64,000 nucleotides of DNA from assembly GCA_022843025.1 (NCBI GenBank), contig JALHOL010000007.1:62001-126000 (forward strand), written 5' to 3'. Made by a program: the position numbers and the translations under genes. Below, piece after piece: positions 16,185 to 60,615 of this stretch. The first letter of the stretch is position 1. Every line of letters begins with the position of its first letter. The notes under the pieces are model-generated. The model ran no database searches. It worked only from the letters and a program-made list of their open reading frames with translations, and was not told the origin of the DNA. Source of the stretch: Paracoccaceae bacterium (GTDB lineage Bacteria; Pseudomonadota; Alphaproteobacteria; Rhodobacterales; Rhodobacteraceae).

Positions 16185-17561
16185 TCAGAAGAAGTCGATG
16201 GAGACTTGCAGCAGGCGTTCCACCTCGCGCACGTCCTTGGCCATGGTGAAAAGGGCAATCACGTCGCCGGCTTCGATCCGGGTATCGCCGGTGGGTTTAA
16301 GCACCTTGTCCCCCTTCATCAGGCCGCCCACGAGGACGCCTTCGGGAAATTCGATATCGCGAATCTGCCGCCCGGCGAGGGGCGAGGTGGACAGGACCTG
16401 CGCTTCGATCATCTCGGCCTCGGCGTCGCCAAGGGAGTAGATCGCGCGCACTTTGCCGTGGCGGATGTGGCGCAGGATGGACGAGACGGTGGTGGCGCGC
16501 GGGTTGATATAGGCGTCGATGTCCAAGGGGCCCATCAGGGGGGCGAGGGTTGGATCGTTGACCAAGGCAATGGACATGGGACAGCCCGCCTGTTTGGCGC
16601 GGACCGAGACGAGGAGGTTGGTCTTGTCATCATCGGTGACGGCCAGCACGGCATCGGCGCGATCAATCGAAGCTTCCAGCAGGATGTCCATATCCATGCC
16701 GTCGCCGTTCAGCACGATGGTGCGTTCCAGGCTGTCGGCGGCGCGTTCGGCACAGGCGCGGTTCTTTTCGATGATCTTGCAGCGGACCCGGTCGGTCCGC
16801 CGTTCCAAGGCACGGGCCACGCCAAGGCCAACATTGCCGCCACCGATGATGACGATGCGTTCCTGTTTCTTGGTCTGCTTGCCAAAGATTTCCAGCGTGC
16901 GGTTGACGTCTTCGGAATGGGTGAAGACGTAGATCTGATCGTCAGGGAACAGCTGGTCGCCCGGATCAGGGGCAAAGAGCCGCCCTTCCCGGCGCACGCC
17001 AACGACGATGGCGCGCAGGGTGGAAAACAGATCGCTAAGCTGGCGGAGGGGCGTGTTGACGACGGGGCAATCCTCATCAAGCTGGATGCCCAGAAGCTGC
17101 GCCCGGCCCAGCATGAAACTTTCGGTGTCAAAGGTGGCAGGCGCAGCGAGGCGTTGCAGCGCGGCCTCGGCCACCTCACGTTCCGGGCTGATCACCACGT
17201 CGATGGGCAGGTGATCGCGGCGGTAGAGATCGGAATAGATCGCGTCCAGATAGGATTGCGCGCGCAGGCGGGCGATTTTGCGCGGGACGGAAAAGATGGC
17301 ATGGGCCACTTCGCAGGCGACCATGTTCACCTCATCGGAATGGGTGGCGGCGATGATCATGTCGGCATCGCGGGCCCCTGCCCGTTCCAGCACATCCGGG
17401 TAGGAGGCAAAGCCCACAACCCCCTGCACATCCAGCGTATCGGTGGCACGGCGGACAAGATCGGCGTTCACATCGACCAGCGTCACGTCGTTCTTTTCGC
17501 CGGACAGTTGGCGGGCGATCTGCCAACCCACCTGCCCTGCCCCGCAGATGATCACCTTCAT
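16185..17561 (-). CDS. trkA: Trk system potassium transporter TrkA
   Basis: A 458-aa cytoplasmic regulatory subunit with two RCK modules. The first NAD-binding motif is VIICGAGQVGWQIARQLSG at residue 3. The second is VIIGGGNVGLGVARALE near residue 235. Each is followed by a TrkA-C domain (for example ASPL-type STSPLAGRQIRDIEFPEG). It gates TrkH in response to nucleotides. It lies 76 bp downstream of ntrX, the conserved alphaproteobacterial ntrYX-trkAH order. Confidence 0.96.
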   Translation of the reverse strand: MKVIICGAGQVGWQIARQLSGEKNDVTLVDVNADLVRRATDTLDVQGVVGFASYPDVLERAGARDADMIIAATHSDEVNMVACEVAHAIFSVPRKIARLRAQSYLDAIYSDLYRRDHLPIDVVISPEREVAEAALQRLAAPATFDTESFMLGRAQLLGIQLDEDCPVVNTPLRQLSDLFSTLRAIVVGVRREGRLFAPDPGDQLFPDDQIYVFTHSEDVNRTLEIFGKQTKKQERIVIIGGGNVGLGVARALERRTDRVRCKIIEKNRACAERAADSLERTIVLNGDGMDMDILLEASIDRADAVLAVTDDDKTNLLVSVRAKQAGCPMSIALVNDPTLAPLMGPLDIDAYINPRATTVSSILRHIRHGKVRAIYSLGDAEAEMIEAQVLSTSPLAGRQIRDIEFPEGVLVGGLMKGDKVLKPTGDTRIEAGDVIALFTMAKDVREVERLLQVSIDFF

Positions 17562-17637
17562 GCCTGCCTCCGGTTCATCGCGCCCCCTGAGTGGCAGATG
17601 GGGGGGCGGTGGTCAATGGTGGGGCGGCGGTAAGGGA

Positions 17638-19068
17638 TCACACCTCCTCGCCCTCATCCTCATCCATGTCCTCATCCAGCCGAGCCATGCGGCCACCGCT
17701 TTTGGAGGTGGTGACGACGCCCAAGGATTTCAGTTTGCGGTGGAGCGCCGAGCGTTCCATGCCGACAAAGCTGGCGGTGCGGCTGATATTGCCGCCGAAG
17801 CGGTTGATCTGGGTGAGAAGGTATTCGCGTTCGAACACCTCGCGTGCTTCGCGCAAGGGTAGTGTGGCCATGGCGCCGCCAAGGACAAGGCGGCCGGTTT
17901 CGCCTTCGGGCGCGTCCTGCCCCGGCAATTCGCGGGCGTCGATGGGGCCGGAGCCATCGCCGAGGATCAGAACGCGTTCGATGACGTTGCGCAACTGGCG
18001 CACGTTGCCGGGCCAAGGCATGGTTTGCAGCATCGCCTCGGCCTCGGTCGACAGGGTGCGGAGCGGCAGGCCCTGGCTGCGGTGGAACATGTCGATGAAA
18101 TGGCGGGTCAGTTCGGGGATATCTTCGCGCCGGTCTTCAAGGCTGGGAACCGGGATTGGCACGACATTGAGCCGGTCATAAAGCTCCTGCCGGAAGCGGC
18201 CGGAGGCGATTTCGTTGCGCAGGTCGCGGGTGGTGGACGAGATCACGCGCAGATCGACGCGGACCTTGTCGGTGCCGCCGGCACGGGTGAACTGCTGTTC
18301 CACCAGCACGCGCAGGATTTTCGACTGCGTGCCCAACGGCATATCGGCCACCTCGTCGAAATAGACGACGCCGCCATGGGCCTGTTCCAGAAGGCCCTTT
18401 TCCACCCCGCGTTCGCTGGTTTCGCGGCCGAACAGAACCTCTTCCATCCGTTCCGGTTCGATCGTGGCAGAGGAGACCGACACGAAGGGCGCGCTGGCAC
18501 GGTTGGAATTGGAATGGATGAAGCGGGCGGCCATTTCCTTGCCCGATCCGGCGGGGCCGGTGAGCATGACGCGGCCATTGGATTTGGTGACCTTTTCCAG
18601 CTGCGATTTCAGCGCCTTGAAGGCCGGGCTGTTGCCCAGCATTTCAGACGAGGTCACATCCTTGCGGCGCAGTTCCGAGTTTTCGCGGCGCAGGCGCGAG
18701 GTTTCCATCGCGCGGGAGACGACGACCATCAACTGGTCGATGTTGAAAGGCTTTTCGATGAAGTCATAGGCGCCCTGCTTGATCGCGGCGACCGCGATTT
18801 CGATATTGCCGTGACCGGATATGATGACGACCGGGACATCCGGGTTGTCGCGCTTGACCGTTTTCAGAATGTCGATGCCGTCCATCCGGCTGTCTTTCAG
18901 CCAGATATCAAGGATCATCAGCGCCGGAGGTTCGGCGTTAATCTCGGTCATGCAATCGTCGGAGTTCCCGGCGAGGCGAACGAGGAAACCTTCGTCCTTG
19001 AGGATATCCCCGATCAATTCGCGGATGTCTTTTTCGTCGTCTACAATAAGAATGCTGCTCATCTTCAT
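17638..19068 (-). CDS. ntrX: Response regulator NtrX without a recognisable GAFTGA loop
   Basis: A 476-aa NtrC-family regulator, partner of NtrY. The receiver domain has an acidic pocket D10-D11, phospho-acceptor D54 (LMILDIW) and K106. The AAA+ domain has Walker A GPAGSGKE (171-178), Walker B VVYFDE (235-240) and FRQELYDRLNVVPI. The C-terminal Fis-type HTH is NISRTASFVGMERSALHRKL, followed by an acidic tail. The loop that normally carries GAFTGA reads LFGRETSERGVEKG (212-225), so the sigma-54 contact motif is absent. It overlaps the ntrY stop by 4 nt. It may therefore act with the sigma-70 holoenzyme or as a repressor. Confidence 0.95.
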   Translation of the reverse strand: MKMSSILIVDDEKDIRELIGDILKDEGFLVRLAGNSDDCMTEINAEPPALMILDIWLKDSRMDGIDILKTVKRDNPDVPVVIISGHGNIEIAVAAIKQGAYDFIEKPFNIDQLMVVVSRAMETSRLRRENSELRRKDVTSSEMLGNSPAFKALKSQLEKVTKSNGRVMLTGPAGSGKEMAARFIHSNSNRASAPFVSVSSATIEPERMEEVLFGRETSERGVEKGLLEQAHGGVVYFDEVADMPLGTQSKILRVLVEQQFTRAGGTDKVRVDLRVISSTTRDLRNEIASGRFRQELYDRLNVVPIPVPSLEDRREDIPELTRHFIDMFHRSQGLPLRTLSTEAEAMLQTMPWPGNVRQLRNVIERVLILGDGSGPIDARELPGQDAPEGETGRLVLGGAMATLPLREAREVFEREYLLTQINRFGGNISRTASFVGMERSALHRKLKSLGVVTTSKSGGRMARLDEDMDEDEGEEV

Positions 19069-54339: not shown

Positions 54340-55122
54340 CTAGCGCAGCTTTGGCGGACGATCGGGGTTCATTCCCGGCGCCGAGGGTGCGGGCGGATCT
54401 GCGGCTTCTGGACGGGGCAAATCAAAACGATGGGCCACGCGGGCCATGGCGAGGGTTGCCGGATCGGAGGTCTGAAGGAACGCCACGTCGATTTCGCCCG
54501 CATCAATGCCCGAGAACGCCAGCGCCTCGCCTGCCGCGCGTGCAAGTGCCGCCTCGGCCTCCGGTGCGGCATCGACAAAGGCCAGCATGTGCCCCCGACG
54601 CCCGCCGCGATAGGTGACGGCCGCCAGCAGAGCGCAGAGCGCCAGCCCACCTGCGCGCAGCAGTTTCGCCTCTAGCCCCGTGATCAGGCGTGTTGGCAGT
54701 CCCTTTGGCGCGTCAAAGCTTTCGGGCAGCGCTTCGACCGCCTCGGGTTCGGCATCGAGCATCCCTGACAGCCAATCCAGCGCCTCGGGCGGCAGGATCA
54801 TCTGGGATGGGGCGACGCCCAGATTGACCCCCAGCCCGACCCCCTGCCCCGCCAGAACCTGCGCGATCACCCGTCCCGGCAGCGCGGCATAGGGCGCGAT
54901 GCCGCCTGAAAACTCGGCCAGCCGTTCCTCCAGATCGAAGATCAGGACGACTGGCCCGCTGTCCAGCGGAAAAATGCGGGGTTTGATGTCGGCCCCCTGC
55001 GCCTCTTCCTCCAACAGAAGAAAGAACTCGCCATCGGCCAGAACCTCATAAAACCGCAGGCGGTCTGCATCGGCGGCACCGTCCTGTTCCATCGCGGCAT
55101 AGGCTGTGTCGAGCGGGGTCAT
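54340..55122 (-). CDS. SseB-family protein
   Basis: A 260-aa soluble acidic protein. The N-terminal half fits the SseB fold (LRFYEVLADGEFFLLLEE, RIFPLDSGPVVLIFDLEERL, LVNL-like GLGVNLGVAPSQMILPPEAL), and a C-terminal SseB_C-like domain follows. The tail is proline-rich (PPAPSAPGMNPDRPPKL). The function is unknown. It lies 13 nt downstream of the uracil-DNA-glycosylase-family gene. Confidence 0.78.
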   Translation of the reverse strand: MTPLDTAYAAMEQDGAADADRLRFYEVLADGEFFLLLEEEAQGADIKPRIFPLDSGPVVLIFDLEERLAEFSGGIAPYAALPGRVIAQVLAGQGVGLGVNLGVAPSQMILPPEALDWLSGMLDAEPEAVEALPESFDAPKGLPTRLITGLEAKLLRAGGLALCALLAAVTYRGGRRGHMLAFVDAAPEAEAALARAAGEALAFSGIDAGEIDVAFLQTSDPATLAMARVAHRFDLPRPEAADPPAPSAPGMNPDRPPKLR

Positions 55123-55135
55123 CGGTCAGTCTCCA

Positions 55136-55765
55136 TCAGGGCGCCTCCATCAGATGGCGGATCGCCGCGCGCAGGTCGGGCAGAAGTTCTGCCGCGAACC
55201 ACGGATTGCGTTTCAGCCACCCGGTATTGCGCCAGGACGGATGCGGCAAGGGCCAGATGCCGCGCGCGGCGTGGCTGCGCCAATCCGTCACCCGTGCGGT
55301 GACATCGCCGGGGCCAAGATGCCAACGCTGCGCAGCGCCGCCTACGGCGAGCACCATGCGGATCGCGGGAAGGGATGCCATCACCCTGCCCCGCCATTCC
55401 CGGGCACAAACCGGGGGCGGCGGCAGATCGGCCCCCTTTGCATCATAGCCGGGAAAGCAGAATGCCATAGGTACGATGGCGACCCGGTCCAGATCATAGA
55501 ATTCAGTCATCGACAGGCCGGTCCAATCGCGCAGACGATCCCCGGACGGATCAGTAAAAGGCCGGCCCGAGGCATGCACCCGCGCGCCGGGAGCCTGACC
55601 CGCAATCAACAACCGCGCGGTTGGGGCGAACCACGTCACCGGGCGCGGGGCATGGGCGGTGGCGGTCGCAGCGAAGCGGTCGGCACAAATCCTGCAAGCG
55701 CCGATCCGAACGGCAAGGTCCGCTGTCTGTTGGGCCGGGCTGCCTTGGGCAAAGGGGGTGTGCAT
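55136..55765 (-). CDS. Uracil-DNA glycosylase family protein
   Basis: A 209-aa protein. Motif A is LLIAGQAPGARVHASGRPF followed by TDPSGDRLRDW. Motif B is LPHPSWRNTGWLKRNPWFA. N-terminal CRIC and a later PPPPVCAREW could provide cysteines of an Fe-S cluster, as in family 4/5 enzymes. The family removes uracil or deaminated bases, although activity of this subgroup is not established. It is divergent from the nhaA-like gene and precedes an SseB-type gene. Confidence 0.85.
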   Translation of the reverse strand: MHTPFAQGSPAQQTADLAVRIGACRICADRFAATATAHAPRPVTWFAPTARLLIAGQAPGARVHASGRPFTDPSGDRLRDWTGLSMTEFYDLDRVAIVPMAFCFPGYDAKGADLPPPPVCAREWRGRVMASLPAIRMVLAVGGAAQRWHLGPGDVTARVTDWRSHAARGIWPLPHPSWRNTGWLKRNPWFAAELLPDLRAAIRHLMEAP

Positions 55766-55925: not shown

Positions 55926-57137
55926 ATGTATCGTGTCTCACCCTTTGTTCGACGCTTTGCCTGGGCGCTTTTGGGCGGTGCCGCCATAGCGACGGTTTGG
56001 GTGAACCTGTCGCCGGGCAGTTATTACGATGCGATGGAATACCGTCTGATCGATCTGGCAAAACCGAACTGGATCGCGGGCGACAGTTTGGTCATCTCAC
56101 CGATGACTGTGGCGTCAGAACTGTTGATGGCCTTCTTTCTGTTCTTTGTGGGCAAGGAGCTGTGGGAGGCGCTGGTCCTGCAACGCGGCGCCCTGTCCGG
56201 ACGGCGGGCGTTGCTTCCCGCAGGGGCCGTGCTGGGCGGAAGTGTTGGCGCCATCCTTTTCTGGCTGATCCATTCCGCGCTGTTCGCGGCTGAGGAATGG
56301 GTGTCTTGGGGCGCAGGTTGGCCGGTGCCCATCGGATCAGAGATCGTGCTGGGCTATGTCGCCGGACGGATGGTGTTCGGCGCGGGCCATCCGGCGCTGC
56401 ATCTGCTGCTGCTGATTTCCATCGCGACGAATATCATCGGAATTCTGCTGCTTGGGCTGGCCTATCCCTATGCCGGGCTGGAATGGCTGTGGCTGTTGTT
56501 GCCGTTGGGTGCATCGCTGGCGGTCTGGCGGTTCTATGGGCAAAGCCCGCAAGCAGGCGAGTCCGAGCGCGAAAGACGGCGCGGTCTGGCGCTGTGGCCG
56601 TATCTGCTGGCGGGCCTGCTGTCCTGGATCGGGGTGGTTGCGGCAGGGCTACCCGGGGCTTTGGGCTTGTTGCCGATCATCCCGGCCATTCCCCATGCCG
56701 ATCGCGCCTTTGGCCTGTTCGCCGAGGCCGAAGAATATCTGCATGATCCGCTGAACCGGCTCGCGCATCTACTGGTGAAGCCGCTGTCGGTGATGCTGTT
56801 CCTGTTTGGCCTTTCGCGCGGGGGGATTGACCTTGCCGCGCTGGCCCCGACCACCGGCACCGTTTTGGCGGCCTTGTGGATTGGCAAGCCGGTTGGCCTG
56901 TTCCTTGGCGCATTGGCCGCCGCGCGGTTGTTCCGTCTGCCGATGCCGGCGGGTATCCGAATTCGCGATCTGCTGCTGGTCGCGGTGATTTCCGGCATGG
57001 GCTTTACCGCGCCCTTGCTGGCGTTGGACACCGCCCTGCCCGGCGGCGCGATGACCGAGGCGGCACGCCTTGGCCTTGCGCTGTCATTACTGGCCTGGCC
57101 GGCTGCCATCCTTATGTCACGGATCGTTGCGCGGTGA
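55926..57137 (+). CDS. NhaA-family antiporter homologue lacking the ion-binding aspartates
   Basis: A ~403-aa protein with about eleven or twelve membrane segments that can be followed along NhaA. LLMAFFLFFVGKELWEALVL matches the LMAVFFLLVGLE region, GWPVPIGSEIVLG the P-TATDIAF helix, and LAALWIGKPVGLFLGAL the helix with the conserved Lys (K321). The catalytic Asp-Asp pair is replaced by T168-N169 (LISIATNIIGILL), and the TDI aspartate by E139. It is therefore unlikely to be a standard 2H+/Na+ exchanger. The start at 55926 (MYRVSPFVRRFAW) fits NhaA; the open frame upstream is mostly antisense to the glycosylase gene. Confidence 0.85.
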   Translation: MYRVSPFVRRFAWALLGGAAIATVWVNLSPGSYYDAMEYRLIDLAKPNWIAGDSLVISPMTVASELLMAFFLFFVGKELWEALVLQRGALSGRRALLPAGAVLGGSVGAILFWLIHSALFAAEEWVSWGAGWPVPIGSEIVLGYVAGRMVFGAGHPALHLLLLISIATNIIGILLLGLAYPYAGLEWLWLLLPLGASLAVWRFYGQSPQAGESERERRRGLALWPYLLAGLLSWIGVVAAGLPGALGLLPIIPAIPHADRAFGLFAEAEEYLHDPLNRLAHLLVKPLSVMLFLFGLSRGGIDLAALAPTTGTVLAALWIGKPVGLFLGALAAARLFRLPMPAGIRIRDLLLVAVISGMGFTAPLLALDTALPGGAMTEAARLGLALSLLAWPAAILMSRIVAR

Positions 57138-57378: not shown

Positions 57379-58038
57379 ATGATCGAGTTCGACAACGTCT
57401 CGAAGTCCTTCTGGACAGGCAAGACGCGTAAGGTGATCCTCGATCAGGCCACGTTCCGCGTGGAACTTGGCAATTCTTTGGGCATTCTGGCCCCGAACGG
57501 CACCGGCAAGACCACCATAATCAACATGATGGCCGGGCTGGAACAACCCGACGAAGGCACGATCAAGCGGTCGTCCCGCATCTCTTTTCCGCTGGGGTTC
57601 ATGGGCGGGGTCGTTAACCGCCACAGTGCGACGGAAAACTCGCGCTACATCGCCCGCCTTTATGGGCTTGACCCTGATTATGTTGAAAGCTTCTGCCGTT
57701 GGCTCTGCGGGATCGGCGAGTATTTCGACATGCCGGTCGGCACTTACTCGTCAGGGATGCGGGGGCGGTTCTCCTTTGCCTTGCTCCTTGCCTTGGAGTT
57801 TGACATCTACCTGATTGATGAAGGTATGCCCGGAACCACGGATGCCGACTTCAACCGCAAGGCAGGATCCATCCTGCGCCAACGCCTGCGCGATGCGACC
57901 GTGATCGTGGTGTCGCATCAGGCCTCAACACTTGAAAAATTCTGTCGCTCCGCCGCCGTTCTGATGAACGGTCGGCTGCACATGTTCGACACCCTCGAAG
58001 AAGCGAAACGGCTGTATAATTATGAAACTCAAGGTTAA
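57379..58038 (+). CDS. kpsT: Capsule polysaccharide ABC exporter ATPase KpsT
   Basis: A 219-aa ATPase of the group-2 capsule/O-antigen exporter type. Walker A is GILAPNGTGKTTIINMMAGL. The signature region is GTYSSGMRGRFSFALLLALE, Walker B FDIYLIDEGMPG and the H-loop VIVVSHQ. The 241 bp upstream hold no visible gene and presumably the promoter. The kpsE start overlaps its end by 17 nt. The permease KpsM is not next to it. Confidence 0.93.
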   Translation: MIEFDNVSKSFWTGKTRKVILDQATFRVELGNSLGILAPNGTGKTTIINMMAGLEQPDEGTIKRSSRISFPLGFMGGVVNRHSATENSRYIARLYGLDPDYVESFCRWLCGIGEYFDMPVGTYSSGMRGRFSFALLLALEFDIYLIDEGMPGTTDADFNRKAGSILRQRLRDATVIVVSHQASTLEKFCRSAAVLMNGRLHMFDTLEEAKRLYNYETQG

Positions 58039-59776
58039 GCGGTACAATACACGCCGTCCCGAGCCGCTGCCGGATCCGGTCGCGGCCCAACCGGTGCCAT
58101 CGCGGCCCGTGCAGCGGCCGATGCCCACCCCGGTTACGCCGATGGGCGATTTCCGGCAGGTGGAGTCTGACCGCCCGGCCCAAGCCCCATCCTCGATGGG
58201 GGCCGATGAGGCGCTTTTTGCGCAAGCCGAGGATGGTTTTGGCGCGATCCCCTTTCCGACCGCCGCAGTCTCCACGCAAGGGGCGGCGAATGCCGTTTCC
58301 TCGCCGTCTGAGGCGGCGTCGGCCACCGATCTGGACGCCATTCGCCGCGAAGGGCTGACGGGCCGCCAGTTGCGCCTTGCCCGCCGCATGGCCCAGAAAT
58401 ACGGCCTGCCCGCCACATCGGATTTTGACGCCGTGCGCCTGTTGCGCCAGGCCGGGCTGGACCCGTTCCGCGCCAACCCTGTGGTCGAGATCGTCGCCGA
58501 GGACGCAGAAGGTGATGCGGGCCAGCCACCGCAGCGGGCGGGGTCCATGATGCCTGTCCCCGCGGGTGCGCGCCTGCCCCAGACGATCAAGCCCGTGAAG
58601 ATGCCCGCGCAGGGCGAAGAGGTGAACCACGCGGCTGAAATCCTGAAGATGCAGCAGGATCTGGCCCGCCGCCGCCGCCGCCGGTCGATGCTGATGATGG
58701 CGCGGCTGTTCTTCTTTGTGATCCTGCCCACTTTTCTGGCGGGCTTCTATTACTATCGCATTGCCACGCCGCTTTACGCTACAAAGACGGAATTCGTGAT
58801 CCAGCAGGCCATGCCGCAACAGGCCTCCGGCAGTTCGCTTGGCGGGCTGGCCAGCACGCCAATGGCCAATATGCAGGACTCGATCACGGTGCAGGGTTAT
58901 CTGCAATCGCGTGATGCCATGCTGCGCCTGGATCAGGATATCGGGTTCCGCAACGTGTTTGCGGCCCCCGACATCGACCCGATTCAGCGTCTGGCCCCCG
59001 ACGCTACGAATGAGGCGGCCTACAAGATCTATCAGCGCAATGTCCGCGTGTCCTATGACCCGACGGAGGGCATCATCCGGATGGAGGTGATCGCCCCCGA
59101 TCCCGAGGTTTCGGTCCGCTTTGCCGATGCGCTGATCGGCTATGCCGAAGAGCAGGTCGATCAATTGACCCAGCGCCTTCGCGAAGACGCAATGAAGGGC
59201 GCCCGCGAAAGCTATACCGAGGCCGAAACCGCCCTGCTGGAGGCCCGCCAGCGCGCCGTCACCTTGCAGGAAACCTTCAAGGTGTTGTCGTCCGAAGTGG
59301 AGGTCAGCCTGATTACCGGCCAGATCGGCCAGTTGGAAGGGCAGTTGACCGCGGACCGCCTGTCGCTGGCGCAGATGGAGTCGAACGCCACGCCGAACCA
59401 AGCACGGATGGAGCCGCTGAAACGCCGCATCGCTACGCTGGAAAGCGAGATCGCTCTGCTGCGGTCAAAGCTGGTGGAGGAAGACAGTTCCGGCCAATCA
59501 CTGGCCCGGGTGCAATCCGAATTGGCCATCGCGCAAGCGGATGCCGATACCCGCCAGATGATGCTGTCGCAATCGCTGCAATCCATGGAAACGGCGCGGA
59601 TCGAGGCCAATCGTCAGGCGCGCTATATATCACTCTCGGTCGCCCCCGTGGCCCCGGACGAGGCGACCTATCCCCGCGCATTCGAGAATACGATGGTGGC
59701 GATGATGATCTTCGCCGGTATATACCTCATCCTGTCGATGACCGCGGCAATCCTGCGCGAACAGGTCTCGGCCTGA
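58022..59776 (+). CDS. kpsE: KpsE-type capsule export copolymerase with long cytoplasmic N-terminus
   Basis: A 584-aa inner-membrane protein. Residues 1 to ~220 are cytoplasmic: a Pro/Ala-rich stretch, then a compact module (EGLTGRQLRLARRMAQKYGL, then DFDAVRLLRQAGLDPFR). A membrane segment follows (LFFFVILPTFLAGFYYYRI, ~235-255). Next come the Wzz/KpsE periplasmic domain and a coiled coil (about 385-520), and then a final membrane segment (MVAMMIFAGIYLILSM). It links KpsMT to the outer-membrane exporter. Classical KpsE is ~380 aa, so the N-terminal ~200 residues are an addition. Confidence 0.88.
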   Translation: MKLKVKRYNTRRPEPLPDPVAAQPVPSRPVQRPMPTPVTPMGDFRQVESDRPAQAPSSMGADEALFAQAEDGFGAIPFPTAAVSTQGAANAVSSPSEAASATDLDAIRREGLTGRQLRLARRMAQKYGLPATSDFDAVRLLRQAGLDPFRANPVVEIVAEDAEGDAGQPPQRAGSMMPVPAGARLPQTIKPVKMPAQGEEVNHAAEILKMQQDLARRRRRRSMLMMARLFFFVILPTFLAGFYYYRIATPLYATKTEFVIQQAMPQQASGSSLGGLASTPMANMQDSITVQGYLQSRDAMLRLDQDIGFRNVFAAPDIDPIQRLAPDATNEAAYKIYQRNVRVSYDPTEGIIRMEVIAPDPEVSVRFADALIGYAEEQVDQLTQRLREDAMKGARESYTEAETALLEARQRAVTLQETFKVLSSEVEVSLITGQIGQLEGQLTADRLSLAQMESNATPNQARMEPLKRRIATLESEIALLRSKLVEEDSSGQSLARVQSELAIAQADADTRQMMLSQSLQSMETARIEANRQARYISLSVAPVAPDEATYPRAFENTMVAMMIFAGIYLILSMTAAILREQVSA

Positions 59777-59784
59777 GGAACAAG

Positions 59785-60615
59785 ATGAGAGAAGTCGAAA
59801 TCGGCGGGCTGTCCGTCAGCAATGACAGCCCGCTTCTGGTAATCGCTGGCCCTTGCCAGTTGGAAAGCCTGGATCACGCCCAGATGATTGCGGGCAAAAT
59901 GGCCGAGGCCTGTGCCAAGGCCGGCGCGCAATACGTGTTCAAGGCCAGCTATGACAAGGCGAACCGCACCTCGCTCAAAGGGCGTCGCGGCTTGGGGATT
60001 GATGCGGGGTTGAAGGTGCTTGAAGCCGTGCGCGCAATGGGCATGCCGGTACTGACCGACATCCACGATGCCGAACAGGCACGGCTTGCCGCGCAAGTGG
60101 TGGACGTGATCCAGATCCCCGCCTTCCTGTGCCGCCAGACCGATCTGCTGATCGCGGCAGGCGAAACCGGCGCGGTGGTCAACATCAAGAAAGGCCAGTT
60201 TCTGGCCCCTTGGGACATGGCCAATGTCGCGGAAAAGGTCGCCTCTACGGGCAACCACAAGATTCTGCTGACCGAACGGGGGGCCAGCTTCGGCTATAAC
60301 ACGCTGGTCGCGGACATGCGGTCGCTTCCCACCATGGCACGGACCGGCTGGCCCGTGATCATGGATGCCACCCATTCTGTGCAACAGCCGGGCGGTCAGG
60401 GCAATTCGTCAGGCGGGCAGCGCGAATTCGCCCCGGTCATGGCCCGCTGCGCGGTGGCCATCGGCATCGCCGGCGTGTTCATCGAAACGCATGAAGCCCC
60501 GGACACCGCCCCGTCCGACGGGCCCAACATGATCCCGCTCGATCAGATGCCTGCGCTGATCGACAGCCTCATGGCCTTTGACCGGCTGGCCAAGGCCAAT
60601 CCCCTTCGCGTCTGA
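59785..60615 (+). CDS. kdsA: 3-deoxy-8-phosphooctulonate (Kdo-8-P) synthase
   Basis: A 276-aa enzyme condensing PEP and arabinose-5-phosphate for Kdo, which is needed for lipid A core and for capsule linkers. Motifs are VIAGPCQLES, FKASYDKANRTSLKG, TDIHDAEQARLAAQ, IKKGQFLAPWDM, TERGASFGYNTLV and DATHSVQQPGG. No cysteine occupies the ...IAGPCQ zinc position beyond the PC of GPCQ, so the metal class needs alignment. It follows kpsE by 8 nt and shares its transcript. Confidence 0.96.
   Translation: MREVEIGGLSVSNDSPLLVIAGPCQLESLDHAQMIAGKMAEACAKAGAQYVFKASYDKANRTSLKGRRGLGIDAGLKVLEAVRAMGMPVLTDIHDAEQARLAAQVVDVIQIPAFLCRQTDLLIAAGETGAVVNIKKGQFLAPWDMANVAEKVASTGNHKILLTERGASFGYNTLVADMRSLPTMARTGWPVIMDATHSVQQPGGQGNSSGGQREFAPVMARCAVAIGIAGVFIETHEAPDTAPSDGPNMIPLDQMPALIDSLMAFDRLAKANPLRV

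Follow-up and report, generated by a model that had tools for sequence, protein, structure and literature searches.

An NhaA-type gene has lost the two aspartates of its ion site in separate stages: Asp163 (E. coli NhaA numbering) was lost once in a clade of the family, and Asp164 was lost later in the genus of the window, the whole 64,000-nucleotide stretch of DNA analysed here. Purifying selection continues on the altered gene. Tentatively, and with slightly more doubt than belief, we read the window's protein as an NhaA-type antiporter that would have been converted in place to a membrane protein no longer exchanging Na+ for two H+.

The gene, its neighbourhood and its ion site

Two hundred and forty eight genomes of the family were sampled, and in 128 of them a match with E no higher than 1e-5 was present. 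The fetched matches fell into three groups: canonical NhaA (15 rows), an intact group B (61 rows) and the altered clade A (32 rows after removal of duplicates and one fragment). Group B consists of fetched rows only, including two from a search of the class, and is about 40% identical to the window protein; no published name for it was found. Rows L001, L003, L006 and L008 were dropped as duplicates (same genomes as L103, L105, L102 and L107), as were L101 (same species as the window), L115 (the gene of L114) and L026, a fragment of clade A. L055 and L077 were assigned to clade A by the tree. The class search, at E 1e-30, gave a match in 3/385 genomes, two of them belonging to the family; such genes are rare outside the family. 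The gene and its neighbours in the window are as follows.

54340..55122, minus strand: SseB-domain protein, a conserved neighbour (domain match, locus comparison)
55136..55765, minus strand: uracil-DNA glycosylase (UDG) superfamily protein, a divergent conserved neighbour (family match, locus comparison)
55926..57137, plus strand: NhaA-like protein gene, 403 amino acids and a stop (Pfam match; start Met and MYRV conserved)
57379..58038, plus strand: KpsT-like ABC transporter ATP-binding subunit (position, and a best match to VexC below cut-off)
58022..59776, plus strand: BexC/CtrB/KpsE-like polysaccharide export inner-membrane protein (189 bits, below the 437.5 cut-off)
59785..60615, plus strand: KdsA, 3-deoxy-8-phosphooctulonate synthase (409.8 bits, cut-off 242)

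The start methionine of the NhaA-like gene is kept in 35/35 clade A rows, and the opposite strand of 55926-57137, read in register, contains several stops. A same-strand kpsT-like gene comes next at 39 of 44 distinct loci (29/30 in clade A, 10 of the 14 examined in group B), and SseB and UDG genes are commonly found upstream at the loci compared. In the window, 17 bases (58022-58038) belong to both the kpsT-like and the kpsE-like gene. One genome, G178, holds three PF06965-type genes: the clade A copy (L134) lies at the kps-like locus, the group B copy (L150) lies elsewhere without a kps-like neighbour, and canonical NhaA (L076) is elsewhere too.

Residues 14-389 of the protein match Pfam PF06965 (Na_H_antiport_1) with 88.8 bits against a cut-off of 23.5, making it a Pfam member. 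The NhaA equivalog TIGR00773 reached 57.2 bits, below its threshold of 254, and scores to NF007111, NF007112, NF011427 and NF011428 likewise fell under their cut-offs. The window protein is in the Pfam family and outside the curated NhaA set. Among PDB sequences, phmmer gave 8 matches, to NhaA entries only (best E 6.7e-7). That the gene encodes an NhaA homologue, as an earlier sequence-only reading had proposed, is borne out by the Pfam score and these matches. A Pfam scan at E up to 1 returned PF06965 and one chance match only, with no PIN/AEC or BASS membership. An AlphaFold2 model from nine sequences (pLDDT 58.9, pTM 0.60) is too weak for site geometry, and the 12 best Foldseek matches of this low-confidence model were all NhaA (E 8.3e-10 to 2.2e-6, TMq 0.63-0.70), which suggests an NhaA fold but does not bear on the geometry of the site. 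The window protein is the only PF06965 protein found in its genome. Three PF00999 exchangers and the MnhE subunit of a Mrp-type antiporter are also encoded there, so other routes of Na+/H+ exchange are likely present.

Residue equivalences were taken from a MAFFT alignment with annotated E. coli NhaA. In helices 4 and 5 the same equivalences come from the phmmer alignment, which pairs PIGSEIV with PAATDIA and ISIATNIIGI with LAIIDDLGAI. The residues concerned are listed here.

56250..56252, plus strand: Ala109, aligned to E. coli Pro108 (Pro in 61/61 intact rows and 1/32 clade A rows)
56334..56345, plus strand: G137 S138 E139 I140, aligned to A131 T132 D133 I134 of unwound helix 4 (alignments)
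56418..56420, plus strand: Ser165, aligned to E. coli Ala160 (S/T in 15/15 genus rows, A in 61/61 intact rows)
56427..56432, plus strand: Thr168-Asn169, aligned to the Asp163-Asp164 pair (MAFFT and phmmer)
56886..56888, plus strand: Lys321, aligned to Lys300 (K in 31/32 clade A rows, R in one)

The sequence-only reading had held that both transport aspartates are gone, that the lysine is kept and that two further aspartates have become glutamate, and the MAFFT alignment agrees on every point (D163=T168, D164=N169, K300=K321, D133=E139, D65=E65). Both glutamates are conservative swaps found also beside or in members with Asp, and that at 65 is frequent in clade A (D in 10 and E in 6 among 20 clade rows). 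Nor has the pair moved within helix 5, which the same reading had named as grounds for refuting it: residues 156-180 of the window protein contain no Asp or Glu, which rules out an Asp pair elsewhere in that helix. An Asp at position 180 in genus rows L112-L114 lies at the very end of this stretch, outside the ion site. Homology to E. coli NhaA, a CPA2 member, extends over the whole length and includes the helix 10 lysine, the helix 11 FT (GMGF is residues 357-360 of the window protein) and a GW..P before helix 4. The window protein differs in having TN for DD, E for D133, GSEI for ATDI, A for P108, S for A160 and A for E252. It also carries a loop, IPHADRAFGLFAEAEEYLHD (56694-56750, residues about 257-275), which is nearly invariant in clade A, similar in group B and has no counterpart in E. 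coli NhaA. ATDI in unwound helix 4 is described in PMC6181914 as the NhaA-clade motif of CPA2. The window protein has GSEI at this place, and the NhaA-clade Lys at position 8 (K300) is present as K321. Electroneutral cation/proton antiporters have a non-acidic position 6 together with Asp at position 7 (D164); this Asp is replaced by N169 in the window protein, and is found in 13 of the 17 clade A rows outside the genus. D/E139 and K321 are all that the genus retains of the four charged positions in the ion site.

Loss of the two aspartates in two stages

D133, the DD pair and the lysine are present in 15/15 canonical NhaA rows and 61/61 group B rows. Among the 32 clade A rows, Asp is absent from the Asp163 position in 31, and the Asp164 position is divided among Asp (13 rows), Asn (10), Ser (4), Thr (3), Glu (1) and Leu (1). 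In a tree built without the motif columns, clade A nests in group B on a long stem, and L022, which keeps DD, is the sister of the remaining clade A. Parsimony gives one change for Asp163, five for position 139 and about five for Asp164 (one to Glu, in L020), the last number being approximate because bootstrap support is not fully settled and many inner clade A forks are open. Group B shares with the window protein its locus, the lysine, a KE(V/L)WEA motif and an IPHAD loop; unlike it, group B keeps ATDI, A160, DD (61/61) and E252. The shared locus and the tree indicate that an NhaA was altered in place and not imported, and they rule out a convergent look-alike. The sequence-only reading had missed this descent from intact NhaA at the same chromosomal place. 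It had also missed that the losses came in two stages, the first Asp clade-wide and the second later, and that helix-5 and helix-3 positions engineered in E. coli to rescue D163 loss have changed naturally.

Within the window's genus the gene was found in 16/19 genomes, and its frame is open, free of internal stops, in every one that matched. The second Asp is absent in 15/15 distinct rows (N in 9, S in 4, T in 2). Position 168 is S in 11 and T in 4, and position 139 is D in 7 and E in 7, one of the 15 rows lacking the segment. The rule of the genus is S or T at 168, then N, S or T at 169, with D or E at 139. The suggestion of a distinct subfamily with a conserved T-N/E set therefore stands in part: the subfamily exists, as the clade A rows attest, and the set itself varies, the exact T-N pair occurring in 3/15 genus rows. 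Position 168 is A, F, L, C or G in 9/17 of the other clade A rows, and the S-N pair arose again in L016. At the Ala160 position S or T is found in 27/32 clade A rows, against Ala in 61/61 group B rows. Position 108 has changed in clade A to a small residue (A, S, G or other) and not to Glu. Sequencing error or frameshift was ruled out, as a genome of the same species, G258 (L101), has identical residues and related residues occur genus-wide. As a control across the phylum, 58 PF06965 loci were read, not a random sample but the 30 best matches plus 28 loci of 20 chosen genomes with weak ones included; 49 of these cover the site (9 fragments miss it) and DD is present in 49/49. Set against DD in 61/61, 15/15 and 49/49 controls, the absence of the second Asp from 15/15 genus rows shows that the loss is not due to chance.

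Several clade A members depart from the general pattern. L020 has Leu-Glu and L021 Glu-Thr in place of the pair, each keeping one acid in an unusual form. The most diverged member (L077/L153, genome G175) has Gly-Leu for the pair and Glu at 139, and a kpsT-like neighbour was looked for at its locus and not found. In G253 (L114/L131, contig 37, about 16896-18038) there is an apparent in-frame deletion of ~25 residues around helix 4, covering query residues about 117-139 and so including acid 139, with the remaining sequence alignable; it is either a deletion or an assembly fault. The named members of clade A are mostly freshwater or soil bacteria, and a relaxation tied to low salt is conceivable. 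A search of the open-licence PMC literature found no description of this locus, of the subfamily or of a natural NhaA without the pair.

Selection and the competing explanations

Across 12 genus pairs, dN/dS of the NhaA-like gene is 0.085-0.222 (Nei-Gojobori), with dS at 0.42-1.11 and so partly saturated. Three of the neighbours have similar values, 0.125-0.274 (UDG), 0.052-0.275 (SseB) and 0.079-0.205 (KpsE-like), and the KpsT-like gene a lower one, 0.020-0.104. Relative to these four neighbours, protein distances in clade A are 1.9-3.1x those in group B. Median ratios in group B, the other clade A members and the genus, respectively, are 0.54, 1.31 and 1.02 to UDG; 1.09, 3.04 and 2.52 to KpsT; 0.40, 0.87 and 0.80 to SseB; and 0.37, 1.16 and 1.00 to KpsE. 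Compared with the intact group, constraint is reduced yet still substantial, and the faster evolution of clade A also fits relaxed constraint. The crossing-helix residues G320, K321, P322, G324, F360 and T361 are nearly invariant in clade A. With K fixed (but for the single R) and T361 in 35/35 rows, the core is not simply drifting.

Published mutants bear on what such a site could do. D164 is reported to be conserved in 94% of cation/proton antiporters and is called essential (PMC6181914). As described in PMC9408914, most D164 mutants are dead and D164E works, D163N alone is dead and D163N/K300Q weakly active, D133 is not indispensable, and the uncompensated lysine of D163N is thought to repel Na+. 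With only D/E139 and K321 left of the four charged positions, these mutants make electrogenic Na+/H+ exchange by the window protein unlikely, in line with what the sequence-only reading had argued. Under the published rules, members of clade A that keep the second Asp (xD) would be electroneutral, and the window's genus would be without a cation carboxylate. The acid pair is lost yet the gene is kept by selection, so the protein probably does a different job from the NhaA pump. The most likely role, in our view, is that of a carrier free of obligatory Na+/H+ exchange, and the next most likely that of a transport-dead partner or sensor.

The second of these, a possible account though a less probable one, holds that a transport-dead relative persists in the membrane in a structural or regulatory role, for example as a pH or ion sensor or a partner of the adjoining polysaccharide export proteins. 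No one new residue has become fixed at the variable ion site (N, S, T, L, E), the rate relative to neighbours is about 2-3x that of intact orthologues, the gene is retained in G253 without its helix-4 segment, and the kps-like neighbourhood is stable. That neighbourhood is, however, older than the loss of the site, intact orthologues standing at the same place (10/14 loci), and the near-invariance of the crossing-helix residues argues against a dead transporter. In 34 loci, 127-255 nt separate the gene from the kpsT-like gene, and promoter- or terminator-like sites in this gap are not clearly above shuffles. A role shared with capsule export is conceivable.

It is unlikely that the protein has kept a low-affinity, electroneutral Na+(Li+)/H+ exchange in which D/E139 alone would carry both proton and cation. 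The D164 conservation and mutants cited above, and the lysine left uncompensated, argue against this. In its favour, an acid is found at 139 in all 14 genus rows that have the position, and salt-bridge mutants indicate that D133 participates in proton binding (PMC9408914). Moreover, clade A has changed at the three positions of the P108E/A160S/D163N mutant of E. coli NhaA, which is electroneutral (Masrati 2018, PMC6181914). The changes at A160 (to S/T) and D163 match in kind, but 108 is A, S or G in the clade and Glu in the mutant, so the parallel is partial; the mutant also keeps D164, which the window's genus has lost.

Transport of an organic or inorganic anion, through a base and an Asn/Ser/Thr pocket with helix 5 free of carboxylates, as in PIN1, seems decidedly improbable. 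PIN auxin exporters have the NhaA fold, and PMC9477737 describes a crossover base that is kept and a Na+ site that is gone: R547 of PIN1 lies at the base position of Na+/H+ transporters and is needed for transport. They differ in having ten helices, an organic anion as substrate and a helix 4 acid that is not part of the site, and no sequence similarity to the window protein was found in the Pfam scan (E up to 1). Foldseek does list PIN8, but weakly (rank 45, E 6.4e-3) and far behind NhaA (E 8e-10), reflecting the common fold. Furthermore, D/E139 keeps the site neutral rather than positive, and the substrate Asn of PIN1 belongs to helix 4 instead of helix 5. That the gene is decaying and has no function left is very improbable: the faster relative rate, the G253 deletion and the 3/19 genus genomes without a copy (two of them <90% complete) agree with decay, which is mostly rejected by dN/dS (dS partly saturated), by frames open in every matched genome and by the presence of the gene in 16/19.

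A proposed course of conversion and its significance

Under the leading reading, a carrier without obligatory Na+/H+ exchange, the ancestor would have been an NhaA-type antiporter whose gene had a fixed place, with UDG and SseB genes on one side and kpsT-kpsE-kdsA following, losing Asp163 once and, in the window's genus, Asp164 later. K321 would then be balanced by D/E139 instead of Asp163, and the lysine may hold the crossing helices together, as the base is described to do in PIN1 (PMC9477737). Helix 5 would offer hydroxyl and amide groups only (S/T at 165, S/T at 168, N/S/T at 169). Mutation may account for this polar pattern better than selection, as Asn, Ser and Thr are all near neighbours of Asp, and of one another, by mutation. 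The elevator movement would most likely be kept, and a cation or small polar solute may be carried, without obligatory proton exchange or with very weak exchange. In E. coli D163N/K300Q, D133 alone is enough for some transport when a second acid is present (PMC9408914), so residual exchange may persist through E139.

A more specific version, which we think improbable, is that a hydroxyl/amide site (S/T165, S/T168, N/S/T169) took over from the proton-carrying helix-5 carboxylates stepwise, in place and at least twice, that the crossing helices are held by one Asp/Glu-Lys pair and that the protein would act as a proton-independent uniporter or symporter. If true, one orthologous gene would show, for the first time, a natural series that runs from DD through xD to xN.

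It is disputed whether the second proton of electrogenic Na+/H+ antiporters is carried by Asp163 or by Lys300 (PMC6181914, PMC9408914, PMC5427271). The orthologues of this single gene form a natural gradation, in which DD and xN/S/T occur with K, and xD with K or R. Three such natural proteins could tell apart what each of the two aspartates and the lysine does, with no need for engineered mutants that are destabilised. Finally, since the sole PF06965 protein found in the window's genome is without the ion site, membership of PF06965 alone is not enough to annotate a Na+/H+ antiporter.
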